Below, one piece after another: positions 10,159 to 34,744 of a stretch of 64,000 bases of DNA (position 1 is the stretch's first letter; the number at the start of each line of letters is the position of its first letter). The DNA is from Gammaproteobacteria bacterium. Its GTDB lineage: Bacteria > Pseudomonadota > Gammaproteobacteria > GCA-001735895. The position numbers were made by a program, and so were the translations under genes. The stretch lies in assembly GCA_024225395.1 (NCBI GenBank), contig JAAEMR010000011.1, positions 1-64,000 on the forward strand. The letters are read 5' to 3'. The notes beneath the pieces were generated by a model. That model was not told the origin of the DNA, searched no databases, and was given only the letters and a program-made list of their open reading frames with translations.

Positions 10159-10766
10159 TGGTAGAGCTCCTCCCGATTTAGTTGATAATACTCGAGGGTA
10201 TTTTTTACTGCCCTGACGATAGCTCTGGGAGTAATAGTTGCACCGGTAATTTGATCGAACTCTCCTCCATCGCGTTTAACTTTCCAAAAATCTACAACAG
10301 GGTTAATAAGGGATTTTCCATCAAAGCCTAAAATCCAGTCTGATTTACGAATCTCAATAGCGTCACCCAGGCCAGGCGTTTCATTATGTTTAACGGCTCT
10401 GACACCTGCTAAGGTCCCATCTTCATAAACTGCAATCAGCAGGTAAATATTTCCACTATAACCTCCGGGTGCGACAGTATTAAATACTACGGCTACGGGT
10501 TCACTTTGTTTTCTGGCTCGGTATACGACTGAATCTGAATCAGTTCCTAATAAAGTTGATGATGGAACCTGTAATGTATCCAGTGCAATATCATTATCCA
10601 TTTGATCCGACGGAATAAGGGCGTACAGGTTGCGCAACAGAACCTTTTTTTCGTTGGCAGCAATGCGTTCAAGGGTACTTTGCTGGGTAAATGCAACCAG
10701 AGTGGTACCGATGACTGAAAAGAGCCATAGCAAAAATCCGGAAATCATAATCTGCTTATAATTCAT
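10155..10766 (-). CDS. rnfG: Ion-translocating oxidoreductase complex subunit G
   Basis: 203 residues: one N-terminal TM anchor (about 9-30) and a periplasmic FMN-binding domain. The covalent flavinylation motif appears as DQITGATITPRAIV, where the second Thr of GATIT carries the FMN phosphate. GDAIEIRKSDWILGFDGKSL is the typical preceding region. It transfers electrons within the Rnf membrane arm. It lies between rnfD and rnfE, with a 4-base overlap to rnfE. Confidence 0.95.
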   Translation of the reverse strand: MNYKQIMISGFLLWLFSVIGTTLVAFTQQSTLERIAANEKKVLLRNLYALIPSDQMDNDIALDTLQVPSSTLLGTDSDSVVYRARKQSEPVAVVFNTVAPGGYSGNIYLLIAVYEDGTLAGVRAVKHNETPGLGDAIEIRKSDWILGFDGKSLINPVVDFWKVKRDGGEFDQITGATITPRAIVRAVKNTLEYYQLNREELYQ

Positions 10767-10775
10767 CGGTTTTTC

Positions 10776-13465: not shown

Positions 13466-14021
13466 GTTGATTACCTGATAGCGTTTCGGGTGCGGACCAT
13501 TTCCAGTCAGCCAGTGTCTGTTTTATTGGAACCATATCAATGCAATCTACCGGACAGGGTGGGAGGCAGAGTTCACAGCCTGTGCATTCATCTTCGATAA
13601 TTGTGTGCATGTGTTTAGCAGATCCCAATATGGCATCGACCGGACAGGCCTGAATACACAGGGTGCAGCCAATGCAGTTCATTTCATCGATGACGGCGAC
13701 TAGTGGAATGTCACTGTGTGCACCATTTTCTTCATTAAGCTCAAGCACCTCCATGTCGAGTAAATCGGCTAAAGCAATAATGGTTGATTCACCCCCCGGA
13801 GGACATTGATTGATGGGTGCTTCATCTTTGGAAATGGCTTCTGCGTAGGGGCGGCAACCCGCGTAACCACATTGGCCGCACTGAGTCTGAGGCAGAATCG
13901 CATCGATTTGATCGACGATCGGATTCCCTTCTACCTTGAAGCGAATAGCGGCATAACCCAGAATCAGGCCAAAACTTCCGGCAATGAAACTTAATGTTAA
14001 AACGGCGATAAGAACTAGCAT
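13458..14021 (-). CDS. rnfB: Ion-translocating oxidoreductase complex subunit B
   Basis: Ferredoxin-type subunit. An N-terminal TM ([21 protein letters not shown]) is followed by the Fe-S domain [18 protein letters not shown]...CPPGG and two 4Fe-4S motifs, [16 protein letters not shown] and [17 protein letters not shown] chose the ATG at 14021 (187 residues, close to E. coli RsxB, 13 bases after the rnfA stop) over a frame extension to 14072 that would overlap rnfA and add 17 unlikely residues. It is the entry point for ferredoxin electrons. Confidence 0.94.
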
Positions 14022-14034
14022 AATAGAAAAGGCA

Positions 14035-14616
14035 CTATACTTTAACCAGTCCACCCAGGCCCATAAAGGCAAGAGACATCAGGCCGGCAGTAATCAAGCC
14101 AATTGCTGCACCCTGAAATGGAGCAGGAACATCGGCTACATTGATGCGTTCACGCATGGCAGCAAACAGGATCAGTACCATGGAAAAACCCACTGCGGCT
14201 CCAAATCCATAAAAGGCTGACTCCAGAAAAGTATGATCTTCCTGAATATTTAATAAAGCGACGCCAAGAACTGCGCAGTTTGTGGTGATTAATGGCAGGA
14301 AAATCCCCAGCACGTTATGCAGTAGAGGACTTGTTTTATGTACCACCATTTCGGTGAAGTTAACCACGGCGGCAATGGTAATGATAAAAGCAATGGTGCG
14401 TAAAAACTCAAGATCAAGCGGGGCAAGCACCCAGTTGTTAACGATATAACTGAGAACGGCTGATAAGGTCAAAACAAAGGTAGTCGCCGCACTCATGCCG
14501 ATGGCGGTTTCTACTTTACGAGAAACCCCCATGAACGGGCATAGGCCGAGGAATTTAACCAGCACAATATTATTAACAAAAATTGTACTGATGAGTATTA
14601 GCAGGTATTCAGTCAT
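14035..14616 (-). CDS. rnfA: Ion-translocating oxidoreductase complex subunit A
   Basis: 193 residues, six TM segments, with [28 protein letters not shown] at the start and [13 protein letters not shown] in the middle; the two Cys are those that share the intramembrane cluster with RnfE. First gene of rnfABCDGE-nth-DUF1841, transcribed divergently from the multiheme cytochrome genes across a 206-bp gap. Confidence 0.96.
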
Positions 14617-14822: not shown

Positions 14823-17747
14823 ATGATATCAACCAGCACACTGTTTTATCAAAGGGCTCGGACAAGAGTAATAATCAGTCTTGTTTTGACAGGGCTTCTA
14901 TTCAGTATGACAGGGTTAGCCAGGGCAAATGTCTATGATGAACCCTCTCTTCATATTGCTATCCCTTTGTATGATGAAGATGGAAATCATGTGCTGGACA
15001 GTGGCAAAGCCTATAGTCCAAAAGAAAGCTGTGGTGGCTCCTGCCATGACTATGAAAAAATTACTCATGCTTTTCATATCGAGCAGGGTCGAGATGAAAC
15101 CAGTGATGATTTTGGTGCCAGGATAGGTCTTAGTCAACTGGTTGGCCCCGGTTATTATGGTGGATATAACTGCATGGGTAGTAATAACCCTGATTCACTG
15201 GCTAAAAAATCTAACAGCAGTGCCAATGATTTTGGTGATCATGGTAGTGCGGGGTTGATCATGCGTTGTGAAAGTTGCCATGCCGGTGGTGGCTGGATGG
15301 AGAAGGATCGCAATGGAAATCGTTATGATGAGACTGACCCATCAACCGTTGCGGAGTTCGATGGTGACTATTATAACCGTGGAACGGATGAAAATAATCA
15401 TCACGTTGATTCTGATGTGGTGAGCCAATGGGACTGGAAAAAATCGGGTGTTGTAGAAAATGACTGTTTCAAATGTCACGCTGACCTGAATAATCTTGTG
15501 GTGATGGATGCGGAAATTGAGACCAGAAGTGCATCGAGTATGGCCAGTAACGTTCGTCGTGGAGTATTGATTGATCAGGGGCATTTTCGGGAATCCAATA
15601 CAGCTATTCTTGAGGTTTTGAATCTGAATATTGAAGATGATGAAGGGGAAGACCGGACACTGTTATCCTTTGAACGTGAAGATATGGTAACTTTAGATCA
15701 CGGTATGGAAATGCCTAAAGACGGTGAGATTTCCGATAAGGAAGTAGTGTTTGATGAAACGACCGGTGAGCCGATCATTAACTGGAATGCTGAAGCTTTT
15801 GATGACGAAAGAAAAGTGGCAATTCCCATGTTGCGCTTTTCAGCCAATGACAATTGCATGGCCTGTCATAGAACCAGTAATTCACGTCGTGGTTTTTACG
15901 GTTTTGGAGAAAATGCCGAGGCTGATCTTGATGATGATGGACTCATTGTTGAAGACTACCAGGACGATGTGCATAAAGGTAAAACATGGACAGAAGCCAA
16001 TGGTGAATCACGCACTATAGAAAATTGTAATGTCTGTCACTCACGTAATTATTATAACCCCAGTTCAGCCAGTGCAGATATGAATGCCAGTCATGATTTT
16101 CTGAAAGGGAACTCTGATATGGATGTGCATAATGATCGTGATTACAACCCGAATGCCAAATCCTGTGAGTATTGTCATGATAACTCTGATGCAGAGCTGG
16201 CTGTTCAGGCTAACCCATCCGGGGAAACCAATATGCAGGCGGCTCATGAAACACTATGGAAGCTCAGTGGAGACATGAGTGGACAACCCGCTGGTGAAGT
16301 TGAAAAAATTACCAAAGCCCATCTTGACGTGGTCAGTTGTCAGGCCTGTCATATCACTGATAAAGCGGCTAGAGGCAGAGATTTTGAGCCAATGTTCCGC
16401 TATCGAGAAGCAGAGAACGGTAAACAGACTATTGTTCCCTATAAGCCAAAACCGCGTTATTTCTGGAAAGATAATACGACAGGAGTGGTTTTGAACCAGA
16501 CTCAGCGCAACAGTGTTTTTCGAGAAATTAAAGATGATGAAGGTGACATAACGGGGGGCGCTATTTTTGATCCTGAAACGGGTGAAACCCTTGCCGAAGT
16601 GGGTGGAAGAATTTCTCATGGTAGTTTTCGATATAACGACCCTGAAGATTATGAAGGTTTTGCTGGCTTGAAACTGGCTTATGACAAGGTGCTCAAAAGT
16701 ATGGATATAGAAAATCCTGATGCCGTTCTGGTCTGGTCAGAGCCCAACCAGTACCTGATTTCACATAATACCCGTCCTGCCGTTTCCTCGGTGCAGTGTG
16801 AAGAATGTCATAGCTATAAGCAGGATGGCACGACCATCAGCGCACTGGTTTCTGATGATGGAATCTTTGGAGAGGATAACAGCTATGAAATAACCACTAT
16901 TGTTGATCCCAAACTGGTTACTGATGGCATAATTGTTTTCGATTACCCCTACATGAAAATGGATGCTGAGACTGGTGTTGTAACGGCTAATGTATCCGAT
17001 ATTCTGGCTTATAGTACGGTTGATCCATCCATGACTGCGCTGAAGTCTGCGGTAGCAAATGCTGCAACGGCAGCGGCTCAATCGCATACAGTGACCGAGT
17101 TGATAGATCAGGCGATGGCCTCAGCGGGCATATCAAATGCTGATGATGTGACTCAACTGGCTGACCAGTTAAGAAATACCAATGCATTCCTGTTCCAGTC
17201 TCGTCAGGGTGATTTTGCGATTCGTGATGTCATCGTTATTTCAGATGATGAAGATTTTGCAGATTATACGCTTCAAGTAAGCCTTGCCGATGATAATGCC
17301 AGTGCTAATGCAGCTGCAGCCGGTCTTGGTGACCTGGTTGCCGGGGCTGAAGTATTTTCTTTGCAGTTCAATAAACCTTCCGGAGAAAAACAAACATCAT
17401 TCAATTCTGCTGTACTCGTAAAACTGCCTTATAGCGGCAGCAGTAGTGATGCTGCAAAAATCAATATTATTACATCGACTGATGGAGAAAACTGGTCACT
17501 TATTGATCCTGCAGATATCTTAATTGTGCGGGCTCAAACAGACATGGAAGCGGGTTATATTGTTTTTCAAACGACTCATTTCAGTTACTACACCACAACT
17601 GAAGTAGCTGATTCCAGTTCCACGATACCTGCTGATGACAGTGATGATTCAGAGGGTAGTGGTGGAAGCCCGGGTTATTTGTTGCTGATGTTTGGACTGT
17701 TACTGACTGTTGTTAGAAATTTCAAATTAGTTTCTATCAGAAAGTAA
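14823..17747 (+). CDS. Large secreted multiheme cytochrome c (7 CxxCH + 1 CX3CH) with C-terminal membrane tail
   Basis: 974 residues from ATG 14823, chosen because GAGAGG ends seven bases upstream; an ATG at 14802 would add seven residues. A signal peptide (residues about 10-35) leads to a heme region with CX3CH (CGGSCH) and CESCH, CFKCH, CMACH, CNVCH, CEYCH, CQACH, CEECH, spread widely over about 650 residues, so the hemes lie in a large protein scaffold. After the last heme comes a heme-free domain of about 250 residues ending in beta-type sequence (INIITSTDGENWSLI), then an acidic Ser/Asp/Gly linker, a Gly-rich SGGSPG, one TM segment and a basic end. That tail resembles GlyGly-CTERM sorting signals. 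It is the first gene of the cytochrome cluster. Not assigned to a named family; a role as terminal or surface electron carrier is inference. Confidence 0.82.
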   Translation: MISTSTLFYQRARTRVIISLVLTGLLFSMTGLARANVYDEPSLHIAIPLYDEDGNHVLDSGKAYSPKESCGGSCHDYEKITHAFHIEQGRDETSDDFGARIGLSQLVGPGYYGGYNCMGSNNPDSLAKKSNSSANDFGDHGSAGLIMRCESCHAGGGWMEKDRNGNRYDETDPSTVAEFDGDYYNRGTDENNHHVDSDVVSQWDWKKSGVVENDCFKCHADLNNLVVMDAEIETRSASSMASNVRRGVLIDQGHFRESNTAILEVLNLNIEDDEGEDRTLLSFEREDMVTLDHGMEMPKDGEISDKEVVFDETTGEPIINWNAEAFDDERKVAIPMLRFSANDNCMACHRTSNSRRGFYGFGENAEADLDDDGLIVEDYQDDVHKGKTWTEANGESRTIENCNVCHSRNYYNPSSASADMNASHDFLKGNSDMDVHNDRDYNPNAKSCEYCHDNSDAELAVQANPSGETNMQAAHETLWKLSGDMSGQPAGEVEKITKAHLDVVSCQACHITDKAARGRDFEPMFRYREAENGKQTIVPYKPKPRYFWKDNTTGVVLNQTQRNSVFREIKDDEGDITGGAIFDPETGETLAEVGGRISHGSFRYNDPEDYEGFAGLKLAYDKVLKSMDIENPDAVLVWSEPNQYLISHNTRPAVSSVQCEECHSYKQDGTTISALVSDDGIFGEDNSYEITTIVDPKLVTDGIIVFDYPYMKMDAETGVVTANVSDILAYSTVDPSMTALKSAVANAATAAAQSHTVTELIDQAMASAGISNADDVTQLADQLRNTNAFLFQSRQGDFAIRDVIVISDDEDFADYTLQVSLADDNASANAAAAGLGDLVAGAEVFSLQFNKPSGEKQTSFNSAVLVKLPYSGSSSDAAKINIITSTDGENWSLIDPADILIVRAQTDMEAGYIVFQTTHFSYYTTTEVADSSSTIPADDSDDSEGSGGSPGYLLLMFGLLLTVVRNFKLVSIRK

Positions 17748-17749
17748 CG

Positions 17750-17983
17750 ATGGACTTTAAGTCAAAAAAACTCGGTCGATTGAAGCAGCTGGCACCCTGG
17801 GCTGCTGGCGCTTCACTGGCTGTGACTCATATAGCAATGTCTACAAACTGTACAGTGACCAGGGAAGGGCACTGTAATACCTGTGGCAGTTGTGCGGTTG
17901 CTCTTGTTGCCCTGGTCTCCTGGGCTGTTATGAAAAAAGGTGGACAGGAAGAACTCAGTAGTAATCAGCATAAAAGGATTTAG
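17750..17983 (+). CDS. Small cysteine-rich membrane protein of unknown function
   Basis: 77 residues, starting two bases after the preceding stop, so translationally coupled. A basic N-terminus (KSKKLGRLKQ) precedes a hydrophobic helix (about 15-30), a short loop with four Cys (NCTVTREGHCNTCGSC, including C-x2-C-x2-C) and a second helix (VALVALVSWAV), then a charged tail. This gives an N-in, C-in hairpin with the Cys cluster on the periplasmic side. It could bind a metal, an Fe-S cluster or heme through a non-standard site, or act in thiol chemistry during assembly. I do not recognise the family. Confidence 0.72.
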   Translation: MDFKSKKLGRLKQLAPWAAGASLAVTHIAMSTNCTVTREGHCNTCGSCAVALVALVSWAVMKKGGQEELSSNQHKRI

Positions 17984-17992
17984 AAAATTCCT

Positions 17993-19252
17993 TTGCGTTC
18001 ATTTTTTCTGATGTTGTTGTCATTAATGCCGGGCGTTGCAAAAGCTGGACTCTATGGGCAGGTTGATAGCCGTGTTCAAACCGATACCTATTTTAATAAT
18101 TCGATGGGTTTTGTCGAAGAATATGCCGAAATTCGTTTTGTTGATGAAGTCAATGGTGTTGAGTCGGGTTTAAGCCTGGCTTTGCGTCAGGATGATGAAA
18201 ATGAAGCTAATGTGTACCAGATGTATTTTTCAAAAAAACTGGACGGACTACTCTCAACTTATAAACTGGGCCGTTTTGAACGAGCAGATAGTTTAGGTTT
18301 TTATACCCTGGATGGCGCATTACTAAGCTCAGATAATGATGCTTTTTTGCTCAATATGTATGCAGGAAAACCTTCCAGAATTGATGATTATGCCGTGGTT
18401 AGTGGTGAAGCACTGTATGGTTTTGATTTTCATTTTTCACCTATCCAGTTTCCCCGGATATCTTCTGACATTGTATTCAAATCATCGGTTGCACGAATTG
18501 GCTGGCAGCGCCTGGAAGATGAGAAATCAGAAACTAAGCAGCATGAAACTCGTCTGAACTGGGGACTGAGTAGTTCAGGTGAAGTAACTAATAGTGTATT
18601 TCTGGGTTTTGGACTCGTTTTTAATGGTAGCTACCTGACCAGTGAACAGAGTACCGAACAGCTTCAATTAAAACTCTATGGTGATTTAGAAAAAAAGAGC
18701 CGATTACAAATTGACTATGAAACCTTTTCTCTTGATGACCCTGAATTATCGTTTAGAGAACAGTTTTATTCCGTTTATGTGAAGGGACGACAAACATCCC
18801 TGACCGCAAGCTATTTTTTTAGTTCCAGCGCTACAACAAACTGGAGTGCCAAAGGCCGCACGGTTTTACGAGAACATGGAGAAAGTGGCTATGGCTTAAC
18901 ATTAGGTGTGGACTTAAATAAATATTCTGCAACCGAATATCTGGCTCAGGTAGATTTTCTTCAGCTGGATGAAGACAGCGCTTTATCAGTATACGGTGAA
19001 ACGAATTATTCATTTTCACCATTAATTACATCAAGATTTAGTGCGGCAATTCAGCATCAACAGAAATGGTTGAGTGGTGATAACCAGGCAGTGGCCATTG
19101 AAGCAGATTTCCAGCAAATGTTGAGTTCTGATCTGTATTTTACTTTTTTTCTTTCCAGGGTGTGGAACAGTCATGTCGATGATGAATATCTATTTGGACT
19201 GAAATTGAGTTACCGTTTTGATGATCGAATTAAGGGTTGGTCAAATGAATAA
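17993..19252 (+). CDS. Predicted outer-membrane beta-barrel (porin-like) in the cytochrome cluster
   Basis: 419 residues with a short signal peptide (MRSFFLMLLSLMPGVAKA) if translation starts at TTG 17993; ATG 18011 would cut it. The mature protein is made of alternating polar/aromatic stretches (YAEIRFVDEV, TSLTASYFFSS, LYFTFFLSRVW, FGLKLSYRF) with short turns, typical of an outer-membrane barrel of perhaps 16-18 strands. It lacks CxxCH motifs. Placed among multiheme genes, it is a candidate conduit partner analogous in role to MtrB/PioB, but it is clearly shorter than those and no MtrB N-terminal CXXC was seen. The last residues (GWSNE) do not give a classic terminal Phe; YRF lies ten residues before the end. 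Confidence 0.65.
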   Translation: MRSFFLMLLSLMPGVAKAGLYGQVDSRVQTDTYFNNSMGFVEEYAEIRFVDEVNGVESGLSLALRQDDENEANVYQMYFSKKLDGLLSTYKLGRFERADSLGFYTLDGALLSSDNDAFLLNMYAGKPSRIDDYAVVSGEALYGFDFHFSPIQFPRISSDIVFKSSVARIGWQRLEDEKSETKQHETRLNWGLSSSGEVTNSVFLGFGLVFNGSYLTSEQSTEQLQLKLYGDLEKKSRLQIDYETFSLDDPELSFREQFYSVYVKGRQTSLTASYFFSSSATTNWSAKGRTVLREHGESGYGLTLGVDLNKYSATEYLAQVDFLQLDEDSALSVYGETNYSFSPLITSRFSAAIQHQQKWLSGDNQAVAIEADFQQMLSSDLYFTFFLSRVWNSHVDDEYLFGLKLSYRFDDRIKGWSNE

Positions 19253-19868
19253 GTTGAAACTTATTCGTTGTACTAGCGTGTTGATGTTATTTCTGATGAT
19301 GTCTCTTGCAGGAAATGCATCGGATACTAACAGTAATCCGCAAGATAAATCCTGGTGGCAAAAACGACATGATCGTGCTGATATTTTTTATCCCCATAAT
19401 GCACACATGGATGTGATGAAGCAGGAGGGTGACCCCTGTTTATTATGTCACTCATTTAACCGTAATAAGGTCGTTAATGCTGAACTGGTTAAATCAATAA
19501 CGACGATTTCCAATGAACCGCTGGAAGCGATTTGTCATGACTGTCATGTGGATAAGCAGAAGGCTCCTTATGAATGCGAGCTTTGCCACAATGACCCAAC
19601 GGTTATCTGGCCTGAAAATCATAATTTTGATTATATCGACCAGCATGCTGAAGATTCCCGGCTGGACAATGGTGAGTGTCAGACATGCCACCTTAAATTG
19701 TCTTTTTGTACAGATTGTCATTTTAGGCGTGACAGATCAAAACAGCGCCAGCATCAATTAGGTTATATCAATACCCACGGTATAGATTCACGTATGAATG
19801 CCTACTCCTGTTCACGCTGCCACAATGCTGGTTATTGTGCTGATTGTCATCGAGGTGGTTCACGATGA
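19245..19868 (+). CDS. Periplasmic heptaheme cytochrome c
   Basis: 207 residues from ATG 19245 (SD AAGGGTTGG at 19232-19240); the frame is open upstream but the signal peptide (KLKLIRCTSVLMLFLMMSLAGNA) fixes this start, which overlaps the barrel's stop codon. Seven CxxCH motifs: CLLCH, CHDCH, CELCH, CQTCH, CTDCH, CSRCH, CADCH. That is about one heme per 26 mature residues, a compact wire-like cytochrome. Additional His residues (HNAH, ENHNFD, HQLGYINTHG) could be distal ligands. Soluble periplasmic by prediction. Confidence 0.9.
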   Translation: MNKLKLIRCTSVLMLFLMMSLAGNASDTNSNPQDKSWWQKRHDRADIFYPHNAHMDVMKQEGDPCLLCHSFNRNKVVNAELVKSITTISNEPLEAICHDCHVDKQKAPYECELCHNDPTVIWPENHNFDYIDQHAEDSRLDNGECQTCHLKLSFCTDCHFRRDRSKQRQHQLGYINTHGIDSRMNAYSCSRCHNAGYCADCHRGGSR

Positions 19869-20842
19869 TAATCTTGAAGTATGTGTTGCCAGTTTTGAGT
19901 CTACTGCTGACAGCCTGCAGTGATTCAGCTAAGGACGAAACAGTATCGTCTGAAAGTGGCAACCTGATATTAACAGAATCTCATGGAGGAGGTGGTTCCG
20001 CATGGGGTTTAGTCGAATGTGATGGCTGCCATGGTTTGAATTCAATTCACCAGCAGGCTGATTCCATTCGTCCCATTGCACAAAGCAAGGGTTATGAAAG
20101 TTGTACCGGGTGTCATGGCACTAATGGGACTTCTGAACCCAGGAAATGCTTACTTTGTCATAACAGTACTGATTTAGCTGAAAGGCCAATCGTTGAGGGT
20201 AAACATGGTCATACCTTTATCTCAGAAGATACTGAAGCTTTAAAAGATGACCAATGTGTGGTGTGTCACCTGGCTTCAGACATGAATGGTGACTTTGATC
20301 CAAATCGTGATTTAACTAGACTTAAAGATTCCCGGCAACTTTACACGCCCTATACGTCAAGTTCTGAATTTTGTTTACGCTGTCATAATAGAGACCATCA
20401 GCAAACAGGTTTTGAACTGGATGTTGACTATGAAAACCCGCTGATCGCGATGTCTGATAATTATAAATACGTTGATAAACATGGTGAGAAAGCAGGTACA
20501 GGTGAAAGAACTTATGCAGGCCTACGAGAAGGTTACAGGTATGATAGTTTTGTCGAATGCACTGACTGCCATGCAATGCATGGTACTGATAATACAGGCT
20601 TGATTATTGATATTTCTAAGAAGGGTCTGGGTGAGCTTGATCCGGAAATCAGCAATAAACCTTATAGTATAAATAATGCTTCCGGTAATAATGCCGAGTT
20701 ATGTGTTATGTGCCATCAGATGAATGTATTGCTGGATGATGCAGAGCTGGATGCGGGGAATGGACTTTCCGGATTGCATAAAATAGCGGGTGATTGTCAG
20801 TTATGCCACAGTCATGGTGAAGCCGTGCAGGCGGGTATGTGA
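19865..20842 (+). CDS. Octaheme cytochrome c lipoprotein
   Basis: 325 residues from ATG 19865, overlapping the previous stop (ATGA), SD GAGGTGG. The N-terminus is a lipoprotein signal with lipobox LLTAC, so Cys at about residue 19 would be lipidated; the following SDSAKDE lacks Asp at +2, permitting Lol sorting to the outer membrane. Eight CxxCH: CDGCH, CTGCH, CLLCH, CVVCH, CLRCH, CTDCH, CVMCH, CQLCH. The heme-binding part resembles cytochromes with paired CxxCH motifs. Likely periplasmic-face or surface electron carrier; no paralogue in the window has the same arrangement. Confidence 0.9.
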   Translation: MIILKYVLPVLSLLLTACSDSAKDETVSSESGNLILTESHGGGGSAWGLVECDGCHGLNSIHQQADSIRPIAQSKGYESCTGCHGTNGTSEPRKCLLCHNSTDLAERPIVEGKHGHTFISEDTEALKDDQCVVCHLASDMNGDFDPNRDLTRLKDSRQLYTPYTSSSEFCLRCHNRDHQQTGFELDVDYENPLIAMSDNYKYVDKHGEKAGTGERTYAGLREGYRYDSFVECTDCHAMHGTDNTGLIIDISKKGLGELDPEISNKPYSINNASGNNAELCVMCHQMNVLLDDAELDAGNGLSGLHKIAGDCQLCHSHGEAVQAGM

Positions 20843-21702
20843 GCATGATGATACTGTTTTTATGTCTGCTTTTTGCAACAGTTTCCCATGCAGAAATTAA
20901 ACTCCCGCCTTTACATCATGTGGTGGATGTGGATGTGCCTGATTCAATGATGATAGCTGAAAAGTTTCCATTAAATAAAAAGGGCCAGATTGATTGTAAA
21001 ACCTGTCACGGTATAAAAAATATTGAAAAAATTTCGTTTGACGAAGTAGATAAAGATGCCGTTAATTTTTTCAGGCAGGGACCCTATCCAAAGCTCACTG
21101 ATTTCTGTTATCAATGTCATGATCGAGATATAAATAAGAGGGAAAATATTCATCAGCTTCTGGATGATAAAGGTGAATTAAAAAAACAGAAGTGTAAATA
21201 TTGTCATGTAGAAACTCCTGATCCCGGGAATAAATATGTTCGTGAAGATTTTGAGTTTAGATTACCCCCGCAAAAACTCTGCCTCGGTTGTCATTTAAAA
21301 ACGCCTCATCTTAATGCTAACAATCATTTGCTGGAAGTCGATGATGACATGTTAGAGCGGATAAAAAAATATGAGCTTGAACACCAGGTTAATCTTCCGC
21401 TGAATGGAAAATCAATAACCTGTATAAGCTGCCATGCTGTACATGAAAAAGGGGTACTGGATGTGCACAAAGCAGCTGGAAAACTGGTGCAGGATAGAAG
21501 CCTTGATCTAGGTATTGGTTATGAGAAACATGCCTGGAATAGCGTAGTGATGGAAGATAAAGAATCTCGGTTGAAACAGTTAGCAGGGCTTAGCGACAAG
21601 GAAATAGACCTTTCTTATCAGCGCATCAAGTATGAAGTGTTATTAAGACTACCCGCAAAAGATGGCACCTTGTGTCTGGTTTGCCACAAATTTGATTTAT
21701 AG
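20839..21702 (+). CDS. Periplasmic hexaheme cytochrome c
   Basis: 287 residues if GTG 20839 is used; ATG 20845 or 20848 fits the upstream GGCGGG better and keeps the signal peptide (ILFLCLLFATVSHA). Six CxxCH: CKTCH, CYQCH, CKYCH, CLGCH, CISCH, CLVCH. Many Lys residues make it basic. Sequence such as KTPHLNANNHLLEVDD and ISCHAVHEKGVLDVHKAAGKL provides possible distal His. It overlaps the octaheme lipoprotein gene and precedes the NapH-like fusion by five bases. Confidence 0.88.
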   Translation: MSMMILFLCLLFATVSHAEIKLPPLHHVVDVDVPDSMMIAEKFPLNKKGQIDCKTCHGIKNIEKISFDEVDKDAVNFFRQGPYPKLTDFCYQCHDRDINKRENIHQLLDDKGELKKQKCKYCHVETPDPGNKYVREDFEFRLPPQKLCLGCHLKTPHLNANNHLLEVDDDMLERIKKYELEHQVNLPLNGKSITCISCHAVHEKGVLDVHKAAGKLVQDRSLDLGIGYEKHAWNSVVMEDKESRLKQLAGLSDKEIDLSYQRIKYEVLLRLPAKDGTLCLVCHKFDL

Positions 21703-21707
21703 ATGTC

Positions 21708-23939
21708 ATGAATTTAATTAATCAGATATTAGCAATTCCGAATGGTCAGAAGTACAGGTATTTTATTATCATACTTGCCTGTTTTGCCATTCTTGCACCC
21801 TGGGTCTTTTTACCCAGCCTTGTTGGTAACTCCGATCTCTGCGGTAAAGTTTGTGTACGCCGATTTTTTCTCTATTTCCCCGGTATGACGCTGGAAGACC
21901 TTGGGAATCAGATGAGTGTTGCCTGGATAGGCGTTATTGCGTTGAGCGTTATCCTGATTACCAGTTTCTTTTTTGGACGGATGTGGTGTGGTTATATTTG
22001 TCCGATGGGTGGTTTTCCGGAGCTGGTTAGTCGAATGATTCCTGATCGCTGGAAAATTGAGTTTCGTGGTTTACCGCAGGTACCGATTCGTTATGGGTAT
22101 TTTAGTGTTTACCTGGTGCTGATGCCGATGCTCGGAATCAGTGCCTGTACGCTGTGTAATTTTGTAACGGTGCCACGAATATTTCAGGCTTTCAGCGGTG
22201 ATTTTATGGGCATTGCTTTTATCCTTTCTGCCGTTGGTCTGGTCAACCTGGCCCTGTTATTTCTGTTAGGTTTTTTTGCGGTTAAAGGTCGAGCCTACTG
22301 TCAGTTTCTTTGTCCAATTGGAGCCATGGATGGGCTGGTCAATCGACTGGGTTCAATGTTCCGCTTTACCCGCCATATCCGTGTTGAGCGTAGTCGTTGT
22401 ACTGGTTGTAATATCTGTGCACGCAATTGCATGACCGGGGCGATCAAAATGATCGATAGGATTGCCGTCGTTGATCAGCATTCCTGTATGTCCTGTCATG
22501 AATGTGTTGATGTGTGTGACTGGCATGCCATTGACTGGGTTGCTGTGCCACGTGTCGTAGAGCCCAAGCGTAAAAAGAAGGGTGCTGATTACTTTCCTCA
22601 CCCGGAGTGGAAAGCCGTACATGATCTTAAAAAGAAAGGCTGGAAGGTTAGTAGCTGGCAGCGGGTTGTGATAGGGATCATTTTCGGGCTTATTCTGTTG
22701 ATGATAGTTGTTACGCAGGTGGGAGCTGCAGAACGACACCCTGACCCGGATGGTTGTTTTACCTGCCATGCTTTGGAAGGGCTTGAATATGTTGATGAAA
22801 ATGGCGTATTACGAAATTCATCGATTGATAAATCACATTATTTCAGTTCTCTGCACGGCAGTGTTCCGTGTAAAGACTGTCATCGTAAGATACAGTATTT
22901 TCCGCATAAAGAGGAAAACGGAGAAGTCGATTGTGCAGAGTCCTGCCACGTGGAAGAACCGTCAGGAAAAGAAGCCTATTCACATAAAAAAGTAGTAGAA
23001 GAATTTCAGCAGTCTGCCCATGGCAAAGGCTGGAGTAAAGGATTAACCGGTGGTAATCGTCTTGAAGAGTCACTGGATGTCTATCCTTCCTGTCGCAGTT
23101 GCCATACTAATGAGCTTTACATTAGTCAAAAGGACCTACCTAAATTCAAGGACTCGTTTGCACACCTTGATACCGAGTGTGGTAACTGCCATCAGGGTGA
23201 GGTCTGGTTAAATCAGTTTGGTGGGCATATATTGCGCCGTTTTATCGGTTCGCGCTGGGGTAAAAATGATAAGAATAAAATGTGCAATGACTGTCATGCT
23301 GATCAAAAACGTATGGTGAAAGTTGAAATTGAAGATAAAAAGACCGGGGAGAAAAATCTGGTTAGTCCCAGGTTTGTGCTGGCCAGTGATAGTTATGAAA
23401 TGAGTTTGCATGGTCGACTGTTAAAATCAGGGGTGGAAGAAGGTGCCTCATGTATAGATTGCCATGCACCTGAAGGTTTCAGTCATGGCGTGAAAAGACA
23501 TGATGATCCTGAAGCGTCGACGCACACTGATAATCTGGCTAAAACCTGTGCTGCTTCTGGTTGCCATGGTTTTGCTACCAACCCGTTAAATACCGGTTTT
23601 GTAAAAACCGATTTACATGATATTGATATTATTCCATTTTTACACCCTGATTCACCACTGGATCAGTCCCGCATGGAATCAAACTGGGTGAAAGCTCTGG
23701 CAGCACTTCTACCGGTACTCATAATATTAGGTGGAGGTACTATTTTATGGAAAATATTTGGTAAAAAGAAAAATGTTATTTTTGCCGTAGTCGGGGGTGG
23801 CCATTTCCAGAAAAATGTATTAGGTAAAGTTCCGCGGAATAAAAGGCCGGTAAAAAAAGCAGTTGCCAGAAAGCCATCTGCTAACTCTAAAATCAAAGCT
23901 GAAGCTGATGTCAGTCCGGGTGAGAAAGCTGATGATTAA
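21708..23939 (+). CDS. NapH-like membrane ferredoxin fused to a periplasmic multiheme cytochrome
   Basis: 743 residues. Residues 1-285 are a NapH/NosR-type quinol dehydrogenase module: four TM segments, two C-x3-CP signatures (CGYICPMGG at 94, CQFLCPIGA at 198) and two 4Fe-4S motifs, CTGCNICARNC (231) and CMSCHECVDVC (260), which face the cytoplasm in NapH. After a basic linker a fifth TM (about 319-339) leads to a periplasmic domain (350-655) with six CxxCH (CFTCH, CKDCH, CRSCH, CGNCH, CNDCH, CIDCH), one CX3CH (CAESCH) and one CX4CH (CAASGCH). A last TM (about 664-684) and a 55-residue Lys-rich cytoplasmic tail follow. The CMSCH at 260 belongs to the ferredoxin, not to a heme. Likely role: quinol (or cytoplasmic donor) oxidation with delivery to periplasmic hemes, comparable to CymA/NapC in job but built differently (inference). 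Confidence 0.88.
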   Translation: MNLINQILAIPNGQKYRYFIIILACFAILAPWVFLPSLVGNSDLCGKVCVRRFFLYFPGMTLEDLGNQMSVAWIGVIALSVILITSFFFGRMWCGYICPMGGFPELVSRMIPDRWKIEFRGLPQVPIRYGYFSVYLVLMPMLGISACTLCNFVTVPRIFQAFSGDFMGIAFILSAVGLVNLALLFLLGFFAVKGRAYCQFLCPIGAMDGLVNRLGSMFRFTRHIRVERSRCTGCNICARNCMTGAIKMIDRIAVVDQHSCMSCHECVDVCDWHAIDWVAVPRVVEPKRKKKGADYFPHPEWKAVHDLKKKGWKVSSWQRVVIGIIFGLILLMIVVTQVGAAERHPDPDGCFTCHALEGLEYVDENGVLRNSSIDKSHYFSSLHGSVPCKDCHRKIQYFPHKEENGEVDCAESCHVEEPSGKEAYSHKKVVEEFQQSAHGKGWSKGLTGGNRLEESLDVYPSCRSCHTNELYISQKDLPKFKDSFAHLDTECGNCHQGEVWLNQFGGHILRRFIGSRWGKNDKNKMCNDCHADQKRMVKVEIEDKKTGEKNLVSPRFVLASDSYEMSLHGRLLKSGVEEGASCIDCHAPEGFSHGVKRHDDPEASTHTDNLAKTCAASGCHGFATNPLNTGFVKTDLHDIDIIPFLHPDSPLDQSRMESNWVKALAALLPVLIILGGGTILWKIFGKKKNVIFAVVGGGHFQKNVLGKVPRNKRPVKKAVARKPSANSKIKAEADVSPGEKADD

Positions 23940-24714
23940 ATTACTAATAGTAAATCTCTATCTGTTTCTCAGTTTTTCAGCAATGGCTGATAATTTATTT
24001 ATTGACCTGGTTGATGGTAAAAATGTTACCGAAAAAAATGTAAGGGAAGCTTTAAAACAACTCAGGGATCATAAAGAGGTAAAACTTAATAAAGATCTTT
24101 TGGTTAATCCTTTTCATCATAAAAAAGAAATTAAAGACAAACTCAAAAAACCATTTTGCCAGAACTGTCATCTTGAGAAACCACATCAGGTAAATCAACG
24201 AAATCGAAGTTTTCTTAATATGCATACTAAATATATCAGTTGCGAAACCTGTCATCTGAACAATCAAGTTTTGAAGCTGGAAAATAAATGGCTTGCTTAT
24301 GGATATCCGAATGTGGGGAAAGTAATTGATGTTTACAGCTCTGTTCATACTGAGGCTGAAAAGGTGAAAACTTCAATATTACCTCGACCTGGAGCTAAAA
24401 TTTCTCCTTTTAATAAGGGTAAAAAGGTTGTGGTTTTCAAGGATGAAAAATTTTCTATAGAAGTAGAAAAAAAATGGAAGACTTTGCCGGAAGAGGAAAA
24501 AGCTCGACTTAAAGCCAGCTTACATAAACCACTAAATAAAAAGGGACTGAGTTGTGATAAGTGCCATAGTGAAAATCAGAAGGTGTTAGATTTTAAATTA
24601 CTTGGAGCCAATCAGAAACAAACTCATTCAATTACCAGCAATGACATTGCTCAGTTTTTTGGGCGATATAAAAAAGACGGTGACAGACTTAGAATGAGCG
24701 ACCTGTTAAGGTAA
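23932..24714 (+). CDS. Triheme cytochrome c, periplasmic
   Basis: 260 residues from ATG 23932, overlapping the fusion gene's stop; the signal peptide (KLLIVNLYLFLSFSAMA) sets this start although the frame is open further upstream. Only three CxxCH: CQNCH, CETCH, CDKCH. The protein is very Lys-rich with long heme-free stretches (KFSIEVEKKWKTLPEEEKARLKASLHKP). It might be an adaptor for the neighbouring multiheme proteins rather than a wire itself. No named family recognised. Confidence 0.82.
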   Translation: MIKLLIVNLYLFLSFSAMADNLFIDLVDGKNVTEKNVREALKQLRDHKEVKLNKDLLVNPFHHKKEIKDKLKKPFCQNCHLEKPHQVNQRNRSFLNMHTKYISCETCHLNNQVLKLENKWLAYGYPNVGKVIDVYSSVHTEAEKVKTSILPRPGAKISPFNKGKKVVVFKDEKFSIEVEKKWKTLPEEEKARLKASLHKPLNKKGLSCDKCHSENQKVLDFKLLGANQKQTHSITSNDIAQFFGRYKKDGDRLRMSDLLR

Positions 24715-24716
24715 AA

Positions 24717-27383
24717 ATGGAAGCTTTCATCTCACCGTCAAAATCAAGTTTGCTGCTTCCATTATTATTTTTGTTAATACTGGTATCTCAAACTGCTGAA
24801 GGCAGTAAAGCCCGGCTTGAATCTATTCAAATTTATCGATCTGGCCTGGATCAGCCTTCAGATATTGCCGTTTCACAGGATGGACGATTTTATATTCTGG
24901 ATGGAAGTCATCACCGGGTTGTCGTGCTCTCTGAGCAAGGTAAGCGGCTATATACCTTTGGAAAAAAAGGTGGTGGAGAAGGAGAGTTGAATTCGCCCAT
25001 GGCCCTGGCCATTGAGGGTAATAGAGTTTTTATTGCAGACACGGGGAATCATCGACTTGCAGTATTTGAGTTGCGTGGATGGTTTGTAAAAAATATTCCA
25101 TTAATCTCTCAATCTAAATCAGCCGGTTTACCAGAACCGTCCGGACTGGTTGTCGAGGATGATGTGGTCACCTGGAGTGATCGAAAAAATCATCAGCTAT
25201 GCCAGACTAATCTGATTACAAAACAAGCTGCTATTTGCTGGGGGAGGCGGGGTGAACTAAAAGCTGAGTTTCAATTTCCATTCCATATAGCATCAGATCG
25301 TGATGGTTATCTGCATGTGGTTGACGTGCTGAATGGTCGGGTACAGATTTTCAATCGCAAGGGTAGATACTTTACACAGGTATCTCGATTTGGTGTTGCA
25401 CCCGGAGAGTTATACCGTCCCAATGGCATTACCTTTGCAGATGACGGTCGCATGTTTATCAGTGACAGTTATCGTGGCACAATTTCTATTTTTAAAAATG
25501 GTCGCTTTACGGGATTGCTATCAGTTGATGGAAACACTGCGGTAAGTTTTAAATCACCTGTCGGCCTGAACTGGTTTAAAGGACATTTGTATATTGTTGA
25601 TGTTATTGATAATGCGATTAAAGTGGTTGAAACAACATCCGCAAAGAGTAGCGTGCTTTTGCCTGGAAATATTACTTCAGGGAAAAATAAAACATCCCGC
25701 AAAAATTGTGATATTTGCCATTTTTCATGGGCAGAAGAGGCCCGCACTGAACAGAAACAACAGGATGGAGTGCTACCTGTAGCCAGTCAAAATATGTGTT
25801 ACAGCTGTCATCATGGAGCTGTTATAGATTCACGCCACGCCATAGGACGAGGTGAGCAACACCCTGATATTCACCATAAAACTAATCATAAAAAAAATAA
25901 TACGACACAGTCTAAGGATAAAATTTCTGCACAGTTTCCATTATTAGCCGATAAACAATTATCCTGTGGAAGCTGTCATACTCCCCATACCTCCGGTATT
26001 GATGAAGCTGAGACCCTGTATGAATCTCATGCAAATCCATGGCTTCGTGTGTTAAATAATGAGGGAGATTTATGCCAGAAATGTCACCAGTCAAAGCTGG
26101 ATAGTGCTCTCGATGAAAATTTTCCTTTAACCGGAGTTAATCATCCTGTAGGTATTTACCTTAAGGAGCCACCTGCTGTTGATTCAAAAGCTTATGCCAG
26201 TACAGATAAATTACAAAAGGGTTTACCTGCTGAGCTTAAGAATGCCGGTGCCAGTACGGGATCGCAACTTCAAATGCTGTGTCAAAGTTGTCACCAAATT
26301 CATGGGGCAGAAAGTAAATCATTATTAATATCCGGATTTAACAATAATGAACTGTGTAAATCCTGTCATGAAAATTTGCACAGTGAGAATAAAGAACAGG
26401 CAAGGCAAAAAGGTGTTCATCCCGTTAATATTAAAATAGATGAAGCGGTTGAGATTGATGGTAAAAAAATCAAACAGGTCACCTGTCAGGTTTGCCATTC
26501 AGTTCATAATGGAAGAGAAGATTCAAAGTTGTTAACACGAAGCACAGATGATGTTGAAAAGCTTTGTTCGACCTGTCATCAACGTCATCATGCTGAAGAT
26601 GAAAAAGAAGCCAGAAAAAAAGGGGTTCATGTCGTCAATGTAGAACTTGAAAAGCCTGTTGAAATAGATGGAAAGGAAATTTCCAAAGTAACCTGTCTGA
26701 GTTGTCATAGCGTACATGGCGGAAAATCGGGTACCCCCGTGTTACATGAGGAATATAAGAATGGAGAGTTATGCAGTAACTGTCATGAAGGAAATAATGC
26801 AGTTTATAATACTGATCATGATTTACGAATAACAGCTGAACATAGTCTCAATAAATTAGAGCAGACAACACAGCAGGCAGGAGTATGTGGAAGTTGCCAT
26901 AGTATGCATCAAGCCAAAACAGACGATAATTTTTTATTTTCAGCATCTAGTTTGCCATATAAAGGTAAAGAAGAAATATTTAAAAGGGACCAAATGTGTC
27001 TGGATTGTCACCATGAAAAAGGCAGTGCAAAGGATTCCCTGGTAAAATACTTTGATCATCCCTCAAAAGATCTTGTGTTACGTTCTGATCCAGAAATTAT
27101 GCCTTTACTGGATGAACATGAAAAAATAGCTGAATTTGGAGCTATAGCTTGTATCACCTGTCATGAACCCCACCATTGGGAATCAACTTATGAAGGTGCT
27201 GATAGTAGCATTCTTCAGGGAAAAGGAAGTAATCAACAAGGAAATGTATTAAATAGTTTTCTCAGAAGAAAGGGAATTACAGGTACTTTTTGTATTGACT
27301 GTCATGGGATTGAGACCCAGATAAAATATAAGTATTACCATGACAAGTTAAGCAGGGATATAGGAGTTGATTATATTGATTGA
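24717..27383 (+). CDS. NHL-repeat beta-propeller fused to a 14-heme cytochrome c
   Basis: 888 residues with signal peptide (LLLPLLFLLILVSQTAEG). Residues about 35-310 hold NHL-type propeller blades (QPSDIAVSQDGRFYILDGSHHRVVVLS, NSPMALAIEGNRVFIADTGNHRLAVF, RPNGITFADDGRMFISDSYRGTI). Residues about 335-880 contain 14 CxxCH: CDICH, CYSCH, CGSCH, CQKCH, CQSCH, CKSCH, CQVCH, CSTCH, CLSCH, CSNCH, CGSCH, CLDCH, CITCH, CIDCH. The spacing C-x2-CH...LL...LC-x2-CH is the doubled-CXXCH pattern (Paired_CXXCH_1). Two consecutive units starting at 26352 and 26562 are tandem duplicates of 70 residues (KGVHPVN.../KGVHVVN...). It begins three bases after the triheme gene. Probably extracytoplasmic, with the propeller as docking domain (inference). 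Confidence 0.9.
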   Translation: MEAFISPSKSSLLLPLLFLLILVSQTAEGSKARLESIQIYRSGLDQPSDIAVSQDGRFYILDGSHHRVVVLSEQGKRLYTFGKKGGGEGELNSPMALAIEGNRVFIADTGNHRLAVFELRGWFVKNIPLISQSKSAGLPEPSGLVVEDDVVTWSDRKNHQLCQTNLITKQAAICWGRRGELKAEFQFPFHIASDRDGYLHVVDVLNGRVQIFNRKGRYFTQVSRFGVAPGELYRPNGITFADDGRMFISDSYRGTISIFKNGRFTGLLSVDGNTAVSFKSPVGLNWFKGHLYIVDVIDNAIKVVETTSAKSSVLLPGNITSGKNKTSRKNCDICHFSWAEEARTEQKQQDGVLPVASQNMCYSCHHGAVIDSRHAIGRGEQHPDIHHKTNHKKNNTTQSKDKISAQFPLLADKQLSCGSCHTPHTSGIDEAETLYESHANPWLRVLNNEGDLCQKCHQSKLDSALDENFPLTGVNHPVGIYLKEPPAVDSKAYASTDKLQKGLPAELKNAGASTGSQLQMLCQSCHQIHGAESKSLLISGFNNNELCKSCHENLHSENKEQARQKGVHPVNIKIDEAVEIDGKKIKQVTCQVCHSVHNGREDSKLLTRSTDDVEKLCSTCHQRHHAEDEKEARKKGVHVVNVELEKPVEIDGKEISKVTCLSCHSVHGGKSGTPVLHEEYKNGELCSNCHEGNNAVYNTDHDLRITAEHSLNKLEQTTQQAGVCGSCHSMHQAKTDDNFLFSASSLPYKGKEEIFKRDQMCLDCHHEKGSAKDSLVKYFDHPSKDLVLRSDPEIMPLLDEHEKIAEFGAIACITCHEPHHWESTYEGADSSILQGKGSNQQGNVLNSFLRRKGITGTFCIDCHGIETQIKYKYYHDKLSRDIGVDYID

Positions 27384-27574: not shown

Positions 27575-30415
27575 GTGATCAATCATAAACTTCAACTATT
27601 CTTTAGAAGATCTAGGTCTAGATTTTTTTTACTGGTTACTGTGGTCATTCTCTCTGCCTGTGGAGGTTCTGAATCGGTTTCGAAGGATGTGCAGGAGTCA
27701 GTTAGCGACATAAAAGATGATGTAATAAGTGAAAATACCGTGAATGAACCTGTTTCGGGTACGGTGGTAAGTGAGCCAGATTCTATTGAAGTTAATCCTG
27801 TAATTATCGTACCTCCTGCTATTTCCGTGGTAGATAGCTCTGGATCTGAAACAACTGAAGCTGGGGAGTTGGCAGTAATAGAACCAGAAAAAGTAGAAGC
27901 GGAAATAATGTTTACTGAACCTGAGCTTCAGGGTATTTCTATGACTCCCTACACCGATACTCTGGCTAAAGGTACACGCTTAAACTTTTCAGTGACCGGT
28001 TATTATTCTGATAACACGACCAAAGATATCTCAACTCAGGTAATCTGGACTAGCCAGGCAGCTGATTTAGCTGTAGTTGATGAAATGGGTTCTGTTGAAG
28101 CTGTTGCTCCAGGAGTGGTGACAGTTACAGCAGCATTTAATGGCTTAACCGTTAATAAACAGTTAACGGTTACCCCGGCCACACTGGATTCTCTCGAAAT
28201 TATTCCTGTCCAGGCTGATATTGCTGCTGGTACCGGGCAAGATTACAAGGCCATGGGTAATTTTTCAGATGGTTCAGTACAGGATATTACACATCAGGTT
28301 AATTGGGAGAGTAGCAACATTCCGGTTGCTTCTTTTTCTACCTCTCAGGTAATGACCTACTCTGATGGAAACAGTGTTATTAGTGCATCACTAAATGGTG
28401 TTGAGTCACGTGCTGCATTGAAGGTGAATGCCGCAATACTGGACCGAATTGAAATTAATGCATTTAACTCTTCCCTGGCGAAAGGAACAAAGCAGCCTAT
28501 ATCAGTAAGCGGGTATTTTAGCGATAACAGTATTCAGGATATCACTCATCAGGTGAGCTGGCAGGTCGAAAACAATACTATTATTCAGGTTGATACAGAT
28601 GATGTATTTGTAACTGCTATCAATGTTGGTTTTAGTGATTTGACGGTAAGCCTTTCCGGTGTTAGTGCGTCAGCCAATGTGGAAGTTACAGATGCTGTCC
28701 TCTCATCCATCGAAATTCAACCGACTAATTCCGCTATTGCAGCTGGTTATCAACAGTTTTTTAGTGCCACAGGTATTTTTAGTGATCAATCTACACAGGA
28801 TCTTACTCAGCTAGTGAGTTGGTACTCTGCTAATCAGCAGTTAGTTGATATTGATAACCGTAAAAACTTCAAAGGTATAGCGACAGGTTTTGAACCGGGA
28901 GTAGCTGAGATCTCTGCGAAATACCAGCAGTTAAGTGTTCAAACCCGGTTTCATGTTACCGATGCCGTGCTGCTTAATATTGAAGTAGAACCGGCAGGCT
29001 TAAATGTTGTGCACGGTTTACAGCAACAGTTTACTGCTACTGCCTTTTATTCTGATGGCTCTCAAAAACAAGTTACTGATCAGGTCCAGTGGTTAAGCAG
29101 TGATAAACAGACTAGTTATATTACAGGTGAAAAACCGGGGTTGTTTAAGGCAAATGCTGAGGGGACTACCAGAATTATTGCCGCTCTTGATAATACCAGG
29201 TCGTTTACAGAGATGACTGTCAGCAAGGCTTCACTTGACAGTATGGAAATATCACTGGCTTCGAGCCAGATGCCTGCTGGTACTAATCAGCTGTTAGAGG
29301 TAACAGGATTGTATTCTGATGGAAGTAGCGTGGATATTTCCAGGCAGGTTATATGGCAAGTATCTAATTCTGAGCTGGCTATAGTGGACAGACTCAGTGA
29401 AAATGTCCTGTTTAAAGCAGCCAGGGCCGGCCCTGTTGAAATTAGTGCTCATCTGGATGGAGTTTCTGTAACTAAATCTATAGATATAACCTCTGCTACA
29501 TTGCAGCAGATACAGTTAACATCTGATAGTGATTTTCTATACGTTAACCAACAAATGCAAATTCAGGCAGAAGGCATTTATTCTGATGGTAGTGTTCAGG
29601 TTTTAACTTCTGATGTCAGCTGGTTCAGTGATGACCATAATATAGCCAGTATTAGCAATAGTGACGGTAATAAGGGAGAAATTAAAGCGATCACTAAGGG
29701 AGTCTTTGGTTTAACTGCTATATTTGAAGATTCAGTTTCAGATGTAACATTTTTAACAATTATGGATGATCCTGATATGCCAGCTGAAATAGGTATTCAG
29801 GCATCACCCAATGTGATTTTGAATAATGGTGTCGATTCGACTCTTGTCTCAGTAAGGGTTAAGCCCTTACAGCAGCAAGGAGTTATTGCTGATGGCACTG
29901 TTATTAACTTTGTCATTACAGAAGATGGAGTGGACAGAGTTGAATCAGCAATAACCGTTGATGGTGTAGCCAGCGTAGAGGTTAGTTCTGTAATTGAAGG
30001 TGTTGTTACGGTCAAAGCTGAAATGGATGCATATGATTTTGCAGCTACCACTCGTATACTCAGTACCTCAAGTTTTAATCAGGTATTGCAGGTAGCACCG
30101 CTTTATCAGGGCACTTTAAAAGAGAATGTTTACCTGAAAGGCAGTATGTTCGGATTGGTAATGAGGAACCTGTCTAATAGAGATTTTTCGTTGTTAGTTT
30201 TCCAGGTTAAAAATGGCGATGAACATTTACCCGATTCACCGGTGACGAATTCTGACCTGTTAAGTGATGGTGTTTTATCGGGTGGTGAATATACCGGGCT
30301 TTTGTATAAACTTGATAGTGATATAACCGATAATGGGATAACCGCGGGCTATATTTTAGGTGATCAGAGTATTCAGCAATTATTCGGGTTTATGCTAGGG
30401 TTTACTGCTCAATAA
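27575..30415 (+). CDS. Lipoprotein of bacterial Ig-like (BIG2) repeats
   Basis: 946 residues from GTG 27575. Lipobox LSAC gives a lipidated Cys followed by GGSES, then an acidic, Pro/Val/Glu-rich spacer to about residue 110. Seven Ig-like repeats of about 90 residues follow, each beginning A-x-L-x-x-I-E-I and containing G-x-YSDGS-x-x-D-ITxQVxW. An invasin-type domain (VRVKPLQQQGVIADGTVINFVITEDGVD) and a C-terminal domain of about 115 residues with no recognised family complete it. A surface or adhesion/matrix role is usual for such repeats. It lies 191 bp after the NHL-multiheme gene in the same direction, so it may belong to the same surface system, though it likely has its own promoter. Confidence 0.85.
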   Translation: MINHKLQLFFRRSRSRFFLLVTVVILSACGGSESVSKDVQESVSDIKDDVISENTVNEPVSGTVVSEPDSIEVNPVIIVPPAISVVDSSGSETTEAGELAVIEPEKVEAEIMFTEPELQGISMTPYTDTLAKGTRLNFSVTGYYSDNTTKDISTQVIWTSQAADLAVVDEMGSVEAVAPGVVTVTAAFNGLTVNKQLTVTPATLDSLEIIPVQADIAAGTGQDYKAMGNFSDGSVQDITHQVNWESSNIPVASFSTSQVMTYSDGNSVISASLNGVESRAALKVNAAILDRIEINAFNSSLAKGTKQPISVSGYFSDNSIQDITHQVSWQVENNTIIQVDTDDVFVTAINVGFSDLTVSLSGVSASANVEVTDAVLSSIEIQPTNSAIAAGYQQFFSATGIFSDQSTQDLTQLVSWYSANQQLVDIDNRKNFKGIATGFEPGVAEISAKYQQLSVQTRFHVTDAVLLNIEVEPAGLNVVHGLQQQFTATAFYSDGSQKQVTDQVQWLSSDKQTSYITGEKPGLFKANAEGTTRIIAALDNTRSFTEMTVSKASLDSMEISLASSQMPAGTNQLLEVTGLYSDGSSVDISRQVIWQVSNSELAIVDRLSENVLFKAARAGPVEISAHLDGVSVTKSIDITSATLQQIQLTSDSDFLYVNQQMQIQAEGIYSDGSVQVLTSDVSWFSDDHNIASISNSDGNKGEIKAITKGVFGLTAIFEDSVSDVTFLTIMDDPDMPAEIGIQASPNVILNNGVDSTLVSVRVKPLQQQGVIADGTVINFVITEDGVDRVESAITVDGVASVEVSSVIEGVVTVKAEMDAYDFAATTRILSTSSFNQVLQVAPLYQGTLKENVYLKGSMFGLVMRNLSNRDFSLLVFQVKNGDEHLPDSPVTNSDLLSDGVLSGGEYTGLLYKLDSDITDNGITAGYILGDQSIQQLFGFMLGFTAQ

Positions 30416-32360: not shown

Positions 32361-32379
32361 TTTAAAAACAAAGCTGTGA

Positions 32380-32411: not shown

Positions 32412-32437
32412 CAAGAAAAATAACAGGCGTTTTTACT

Positions 32438-34734: not shown

Positions 34735-34744
34735 AGTTTACTCT

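Follow-up and report, generated by a model that had tools for sequence, protein, structure and literature searches.

The 64-kb window analysed here (the whole stretch of DNA, 64,000 nucleotides) contains a nine-gene cluster, g1 to g9 at 14823-27383 (+), that is orthologous to the MCA0424-MCA0433 operon of Methylococcus capsulatus. We consider it likely that the cluster is a trans-envelope conduit of the MCA0424-MCA0433 type, which would carry electrons from quinol to the cell surface for extracellular electron transfer (EET); we infer the order of the carriers, the direction of flow and the acceptor. An earlier note on this DNA had read the genes as a distinct quinone-to-surface conduit or a reductase for an unknown acceptor. 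Our analysis supports a distinct trans-envelope set, entered at the inner membrane through a NapH-like part and continuing by way of periplasmic carriers and a lipoprotein to a barrel and a surface cytochrome.

Re-checking of the ORFs recovered all nine genes that the earlier note had placed here, collinear on one strand and either overlapping slightly or separated by short gaps. Longest-ORF starts inflate some of the overlaps; signal peptides put the likely starts of g4, g5 and g8 at 19245, 19865 and 23908 or 23932, respectively. Translation of g1 probably starts at 14823, as had been called, with GAGAGG just 5' of this position, rather than at the alternative ATG at 14802. The nine genes may fairly be treated as one transcription unit; promoter-like and terminator-like matches are no more frequent within the cluster than in shuffled sequence. 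From g1 to g9 the proteins have 7, 0, 0, 7, 8, 6, 6, 3 and 14 CxxCH motifs (51 in all), and with two CX3CH and one CX4CH sites the seven multiheme cytochromes come to about 54 hemes, the figure given previously; the three odd-spacer sites are conserved in orthologues. A CMSCH in g7 (22485-22499 (+), residue 260) lies in the sequence CMSCHECVDVC of the 4Fe-4S part and is no heme site, and it had rightly been omitted from that count. Since the remaining ORFs of the window have only a handful of CxxCH, the density of heme motifs in the cluster is not due to chance. Motif counts are nearly fixed among orthologues: 7 in g4 (51/52), 8 in g5 (54/59), 6 in g6 (62/62) and 3 in g8 (33/33).

For M. capsulatus Bath, Larsen and Karlsen described a putative operon of eleven genes, with eight multiheme cytochromes, 58 CxxCH and a barrel, MCA0427, and thought electron transfer to the exterior plausible for it (2016, PMC4831470). 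Two of its proteins, MCA0424 and MCA0426, were obtained from the cell surface, and copper starvation raised all eight cytochromes 2.3-8.6-fold (PMC4831470). Our count in strain Texas gave 11 genes and 8 cytochromes, with 7+7+7+8+6+6+3+14 = 58 CxxCH, equal to the published operon. The window is like the M. capsulatus operon in gene order and heme counts, in the barrel, and in a NapH-like part followed by an octaheme part, then g8 and the 14-heme g9. Going by this order, g1 would correspond to MCA0424/0426, g2 to MCA0425, g3 to MCA0427, g4 to MCA0428, g5 to MCA0428b, g6 to MCA0429, g7 to MCA0430+0431, g8 to MCA0432 and g9 to MCA0433. The window differs in having a single g1 with a GlyGly-type tail, NapH fused to the octaheme part and a g5 lipobox, in lacking c553o genes upstream, and in that its host lacks pmoA. 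Given this gene-for-gene orthology, the view that no known layout matches the cluster is not supported. As to orthology with a characterised complex, an orthologous operon has indeed been described, but it is biochemically uncharacterised.

M. capsulatus Bath also reduces iron and gives donor-fed anodic current, both more strongly when starved of copper than when grown with it, and the current is partly lost on deletion of MCA0421 (PMC6281684). In strain Texas the operon is preceded by two genes of ~1,150 aa with 8 and 9 CxxCH, positionally MCA0423 and MCA0421; neither matches g1, and MCA0421 was rejected as a g1 orthologue. Because MCA0421 is an upstream neighbour with no detectable homology to g1, its deletion bears only indirectly on the conduit. 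We found no report of the nine-gene set outside M. capsulatus in the open-access papers searched, and the NapH-octaheme fusion and the surface anchor are features not described for the M. capsulatus operon. Our analysis adds the fusion in the sulfur-oxidiser branch, the g1 tails that track rhombosortase, a g1 heme core nearest to octaheme tetrathionate reductase (OTR), the apparent pairing of g2 with NapH-like genes, and the recurrence of the g6-g9 half with a different outer half.

Whether the nine-gene order recurs in genome collections had been proposed as a check, and it does. When about 85,000 species genomes were scanned, 80 loci came up, about ten of them NapH-like genes only. These and two earlier loci were then searched by tblastn with all nine proteins: the full g1-g9 order is found in 29, and in 2 more with g1 duplicated (M. 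capsulatus Texas, L104, and L034), making 31 complete loci; most of the remainder are interrupted by contig ends, and the window's sister genome (L036) is counted once. Among 369 genomes of the same class, a protein search found full-length or nearly full-length g7 relatives in seven, including the window's own, and the cluster is present in 2/8 genomes of the window's genus, which marks it as an accessory trait. The cluster, whole or in part, is carried by dozens of species from marine, freshwater and symbiotic habitats, which include Beggiatoaceae (Halobeggiatoa, Parabeggiatoa, Venteria and Thioploca), Sedimenticola, the symbionts of Escarpia and Lamellibrachia, methanotrophic symbionts of Bathymodiolus, many Methylococcaceae, Methylothermaceae and one Nitrosomonas MAG. 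The cluster genes are partly dispersed in some Beggiatoaceae, and several methanotrophs have genes for cytochrome c maturation next to the cluster. Two loci have similar downstream genes (L025, 6316-10354, and L037, 16129-19774), encoding a Gly-rich lipoprotein, a Cys-rich protein, thioredoxin-like proteins and a small cytochrome c, and such genes are absent from the window.

The order conserved across other genomes takes in the nine genes only, and two neighbours in the window were rejected as members. (i) The rnfABCDGE genes, with nth, lie divergent from the cluster at 8806-14616 (-); this neighbourhood is seen only in the window and its sister genome. (ii) A large lipoprotein with at least six Big_2 domains is encoded directly behind the cluster at 27575-30415, but it is not behind g9 in the sister genome. 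A third group, at 31821-37907 (-), is a nap operon (napF, B, H, G, A and probably D), with NapA at 1360 bits and NapG and NapH above their cut-offs; its reading as a sulfite/Psr-type operon was rejected. The host genome has a dsrA above cut-off and no pmoA, which together with the nap operon points to a nitrate reducer that is probably a sulfur oxidiser. It also has a separate OTR-family gene (G000:C193:12828-14192) that scores above the family cut-off.

The putative surface octaheme cytochrome g1 (14823-17747 (+)) has seven CxxCH and one CX3CH. The CX3CH, near 15030, is its first heme site, which is invariant in 40 orthologues as a site while its spacer ranges from CX2CH through CX3CH and CX4CH up to CX7CH; both g1 copies of M. 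capsulatus Texas have CX7CH there, so that published CxxCH counts may miss hemes. After the heme core, residues 747-931 form a ZU5-like domain in the AF2 model (Z 9.7). Searches of PDB sequences with g1, as a single sequence and as a profile, gave no match, and Foldseek gave no significant match; MtrC was absent among the Foldseek results, which excludes nothing. In the sulfur oxidisers g1 ends in a Gly-rich stretch, a hydrophobic helix and a basic end, of the GlyGly-CTERM type; the window's tail reads GSGGSPGYLLLMFGLLLTVVRN.., and the pattern is clearer in relatives (SSSGGG..LLLL..RRR). A GlyGly-CTERM-named model matches the g1 proteins weakly, in 2 members, and g1 of two relatives has a JDVT-CTERM tail (best 8.3e-12), while no sorting tail was found in the methanotroph or Nitrosomonas orthologues. 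Across genomes these surface-sorting tails track the presence of rhombosortase: profile searches found the enzyme above cut-off in the genomes of the window, G001, G172, L040, L053 and L055, and found none above cut-off in those of L037 (with the JDVT tail), L061, L097 and L104, the tail state of L055 and L061 being taken from their relatives. The host rhombosortase (TIGR03902, 131.9 bits, over the cut-off) is on contig C172, about 3 kb from gspD.

The passage through the outer membrane would be formed by g3 with g4 and/or g5. The AlphaFold2 model of g3 (17993-19252 (+)), built with 48 orthologues, predicts a barrel of 22 strands (pLDDT 87.7). Among known structures it is most like TonB-receptor barrels (Z 20.0, 337 residues, 4.8 A), but the modelled g3 barrel has no plug. 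No Pfam family matched g3, that of MtrB/PioB (PF11854) included, and MtrB has 26 strands as against the predicted 22. The 7-heme g4 (19218-19868 (+)), predicted to be periplasmic, is a candidate for the heme wire through the barrel. An LTAC lipobox marks the 8-heme g5 (19844-20842 (+)) as a putative lipoprotein; methanotroph g5 proteins have no lipobox, and this feature and the g1 anchor are both lineage-specific. We also noted g5 repeat proteins: a 24-heme protein at 2731-5682 of L077 consists of three g5 units in tandem, and one of L056 has two units.

According to a hydropathy scan, g7 (21708-23939 (+)) begins with a NapH-like Fe-S part that has four transmembrane segments (TMs); a fifth TM leads to the periplasmic octaheme part (six CxxCH, one CX3CH and one CX4CH), which is followed by a C-terminal TM. 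The odd heme sites, C409/C413/H414 and C614/C619/H620, are invariant in five orthologues. NapH of the periplasmic nitrate reductase shares with g7 the fold of four TMs and two 4Fe-4S clusters, but the host's true NapH is encoded separately in the nap operon (32923-33912) and g7 falls under the NapH cut-offs (TIGR02163, 68.2 vs 213; NF007013, 60.4 vs 234). A plasmid tblastn with g7 gave only remote NapH-like matches. The NapH-like and octaheme parts are fused in 27 loci and split in most others, the automatic call being unreliable at L025, where it picked a wrong gene, and at L041, owing to a frameshift or the assembly. In a FastTree tree of g5+g6+g7, midpoint-rooted and weak at some nodes, the methanotroph side is split throughout and the sulfur-oxidiser side is fused except for one nested split clade. 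A NapH homologue followed by an 8-heme protein is also known from ANME-2c, where it was likened to quinol:cytochrome c oxidoreductases (PMC9012536).

The small hairpin membrane protein g2 (17750-17983 (+)) has hydrophobic stretches flanking an invariant C-x(8-9)-CxxCxxC, possibly an Fe-S site, and is present between g1 and g3, or at the corresponding position, in 44 loci. At three further loci (L103, L105 and L107, on one Nitrospirota and two Lentisphaerae contigs) a g2-like CxxCxxC hairpin gene, judged by eye, lies directly behind a NapH-like gene with no cytochromes nearby. This arrangement suggests that g2 works with the NapH-like part, probably in the inner membrane.

The g6-g9 half appears to be exchangeable. 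It includes a periplasmic 6-heme cytochrome, g6 (20839-21702 (+)), and a periplasmic 3-heme cytochrome, g8 (23863-24714 (+)), both by prediction, and g9 (24717-27383 (+)), an NHL propeller with a 14-heme cytochrome part, whose PDB matches cover only the propeller and whose motif count is 12-20 among orthologues, mostly 12 or 14. Other gammaproteobacterial loci combine relatives of g6, the g7 octaheme part, g8 and g9 with a b561-type cytochrome b in place of NapH, a swap that supports the octaheme receiving its electrons from a quinol enzyme. At L117 and L119 a g6-g9-type half stands beside a different outer half: NHL, a 630-700 aa protein that is probably a barrel, NHL, and an 11-heme protein. 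Related cytochrome loci (L116-L119, L035 and L027) encode proteins with 18 and 24 hemes, NHL proteins as separate genes and a b561-type cytochrome b, and are possible Uet-like systems. The Uet system of Tenderiales and Gallionella has NHL-repeat proteins, small multihemes and a barrel; its members include the undecaheme UetJ, the tetraheme UetA, the trihemes UetDEG and the UetC barrel, with an undecaheme and tetraheme outer half (PMC10734462). The loci L116, L117 and L119 share the g6/g7C/g8/g9 half with the window and are like Uet by layout alone. The window is unlike Uet in having g1-g5 in place of the undecaheme/tetraheme outer half (the cluster has no 11-heme or 4-heme gene), and where it has NapH those loci have b561-type cytochrome b.

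MtrCAB, MtoAB and PioAB are similar in working plan, with quinol entry, periplasmic carriers, a barrel with heme wire and a surface multiheme cytochrome. The earlier note had set the cluster outside the Mtr, Pio, Omc and Nrf layouts, and family profile searches agree. The best cluster scores are 55.4 bits (g9) for decaheme MtrA (TIGR03508; cut-off 192.2) and 27.7 bits (g5) for the OmcA/MtrC decaheme family (TIGR03507; cut-off 209.3), and the MtrB/PioB family has no match anywhere in the host genome. The EET genes of a Bothnian Sea Methylobacter (PMC13322032) and of Nitrosomonas communis (PMC10415592) are Mtr homologues, and were set aside as separate systems.

In the proposed mechanism, the NapH-like half of g7, probably with g2, would oxidise inner-membrane quinol and pass the electrons to the g7 octaheme; g8, g6 and the propeller-bearing g9 would ferry them across the periplasm, and g4 and/or the lipoprotein g5 would conduct them through the 22-stranded g3 barrel. 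After export by type II secretion, g1 would be retained on the surface by its rhombosortase-type tail and could hand the electrons to an acceptor outside the cell, for example Fe(III)/Mn(IV) oxide or humics. The conduit may serve as a relief valve or as an alternative respiration when oxygen or nitrate is scarce. Quinol entry fits the replacement of the NapH-like part by b561-type cytochrome b in related loci, the surface location of MCA0424 and MCA0426 fits a conduit that reaches the surface, and the outward direction is favoured by the anodic current of copper-starved M. capsulatus.

That current also speaks against an inward conduit, in which Fe(II), minerals, partner cells or sulfur compounds would supply electrons to the surface cytochromes, and an autotroph would use them, once in its quinone pool, for reverse electron transport. 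We regard this as decidedly improbable: methanotrophs, with no obvious need for electron uptake, are among the carriers. In its favour, most of the sulfur-oxidiser-branch genomes tested have dsrA, and the layout of the loci with the g6/g7C/g8/g9 half is similar to that of Uet, a system reported from cathode-oxidising Tenderiales. Somewhat better placed, though still unlikely, is the alternative that g1 is a true enzyme of the surface, an OTR/HAO-type octaheme reductase that acts on one particular soluble acceptor (tetrathionate, nitrogen oxide, sulfite or other) and is fed by the rest of the cluster. It is kept because the nearest known family to the g1 heme core, as judged from profiles and models, is OTR. 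All 40 g1 proteins match TIGR04315 (OTR; best 5e-16), and g1 has eight heme sites, like OTR (1sp3). An hhalign comparison of the g1 profile with OTR-family homologues gives probability 98.7 (E 2.8e-16, 137 columns), above the other cluster cytochromes, and 297 residues of the AF2 model align with 1sp3 (19% identity, Z 6.2). The TIGR04315 score of g1, however, is 39.7 bits, far under the family cut-off of 375; other cluster multiheme proteins match OTR too, at 1e-8 to 1e-10; the PDB profile search was without a match; an attempt to map the OTR active-site lysine onto g1 gave no position; and g1 departs from OTR in its extra C-terminal ZU5-like domain and sorting tail.

A non-respiratory role, as a surface metal-redox system that acquires or detoxifies copper or iron, seems to us very improbable. 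The M. capsulatus operon is copper-repressed, with a predicted FUR box and TonB-family genes near (PMC4831470), as might suit such a role, but NapH-type quinol entry and about 54 hemes would be costly for assimilation, and the limitation of the conserved order to the nine genes argues against it as well.

We are evenly divided on the broader proposal that the cluster represents a widespread, unnamed conduit class of aerobic chemolithotrophs (sulfur oxidisers, methanotrophs and at least one ammonia oxidiser), with a plug-less 22-strand barrel, a sortase-anchored OTR-like octaheme terminus, NapH-octaheme quinol entry and a build of two exchangeable halves, of which one is also put to use in Uet-like systems. 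If the conduit works as proposed, organisms of sulfide and methane interfaces that are regarded as strictly dependent on oxygen or nitrate, animal symbionts and Beggiatoaceae among them, could pass electrons to solids once those acceptors run out. The surface cytochromes and electrode activity of M. capsulatus would be tied to a defined, conserved gene set, and g3, g4 and g7 would provide marker genes to detect the trait in further genomes.
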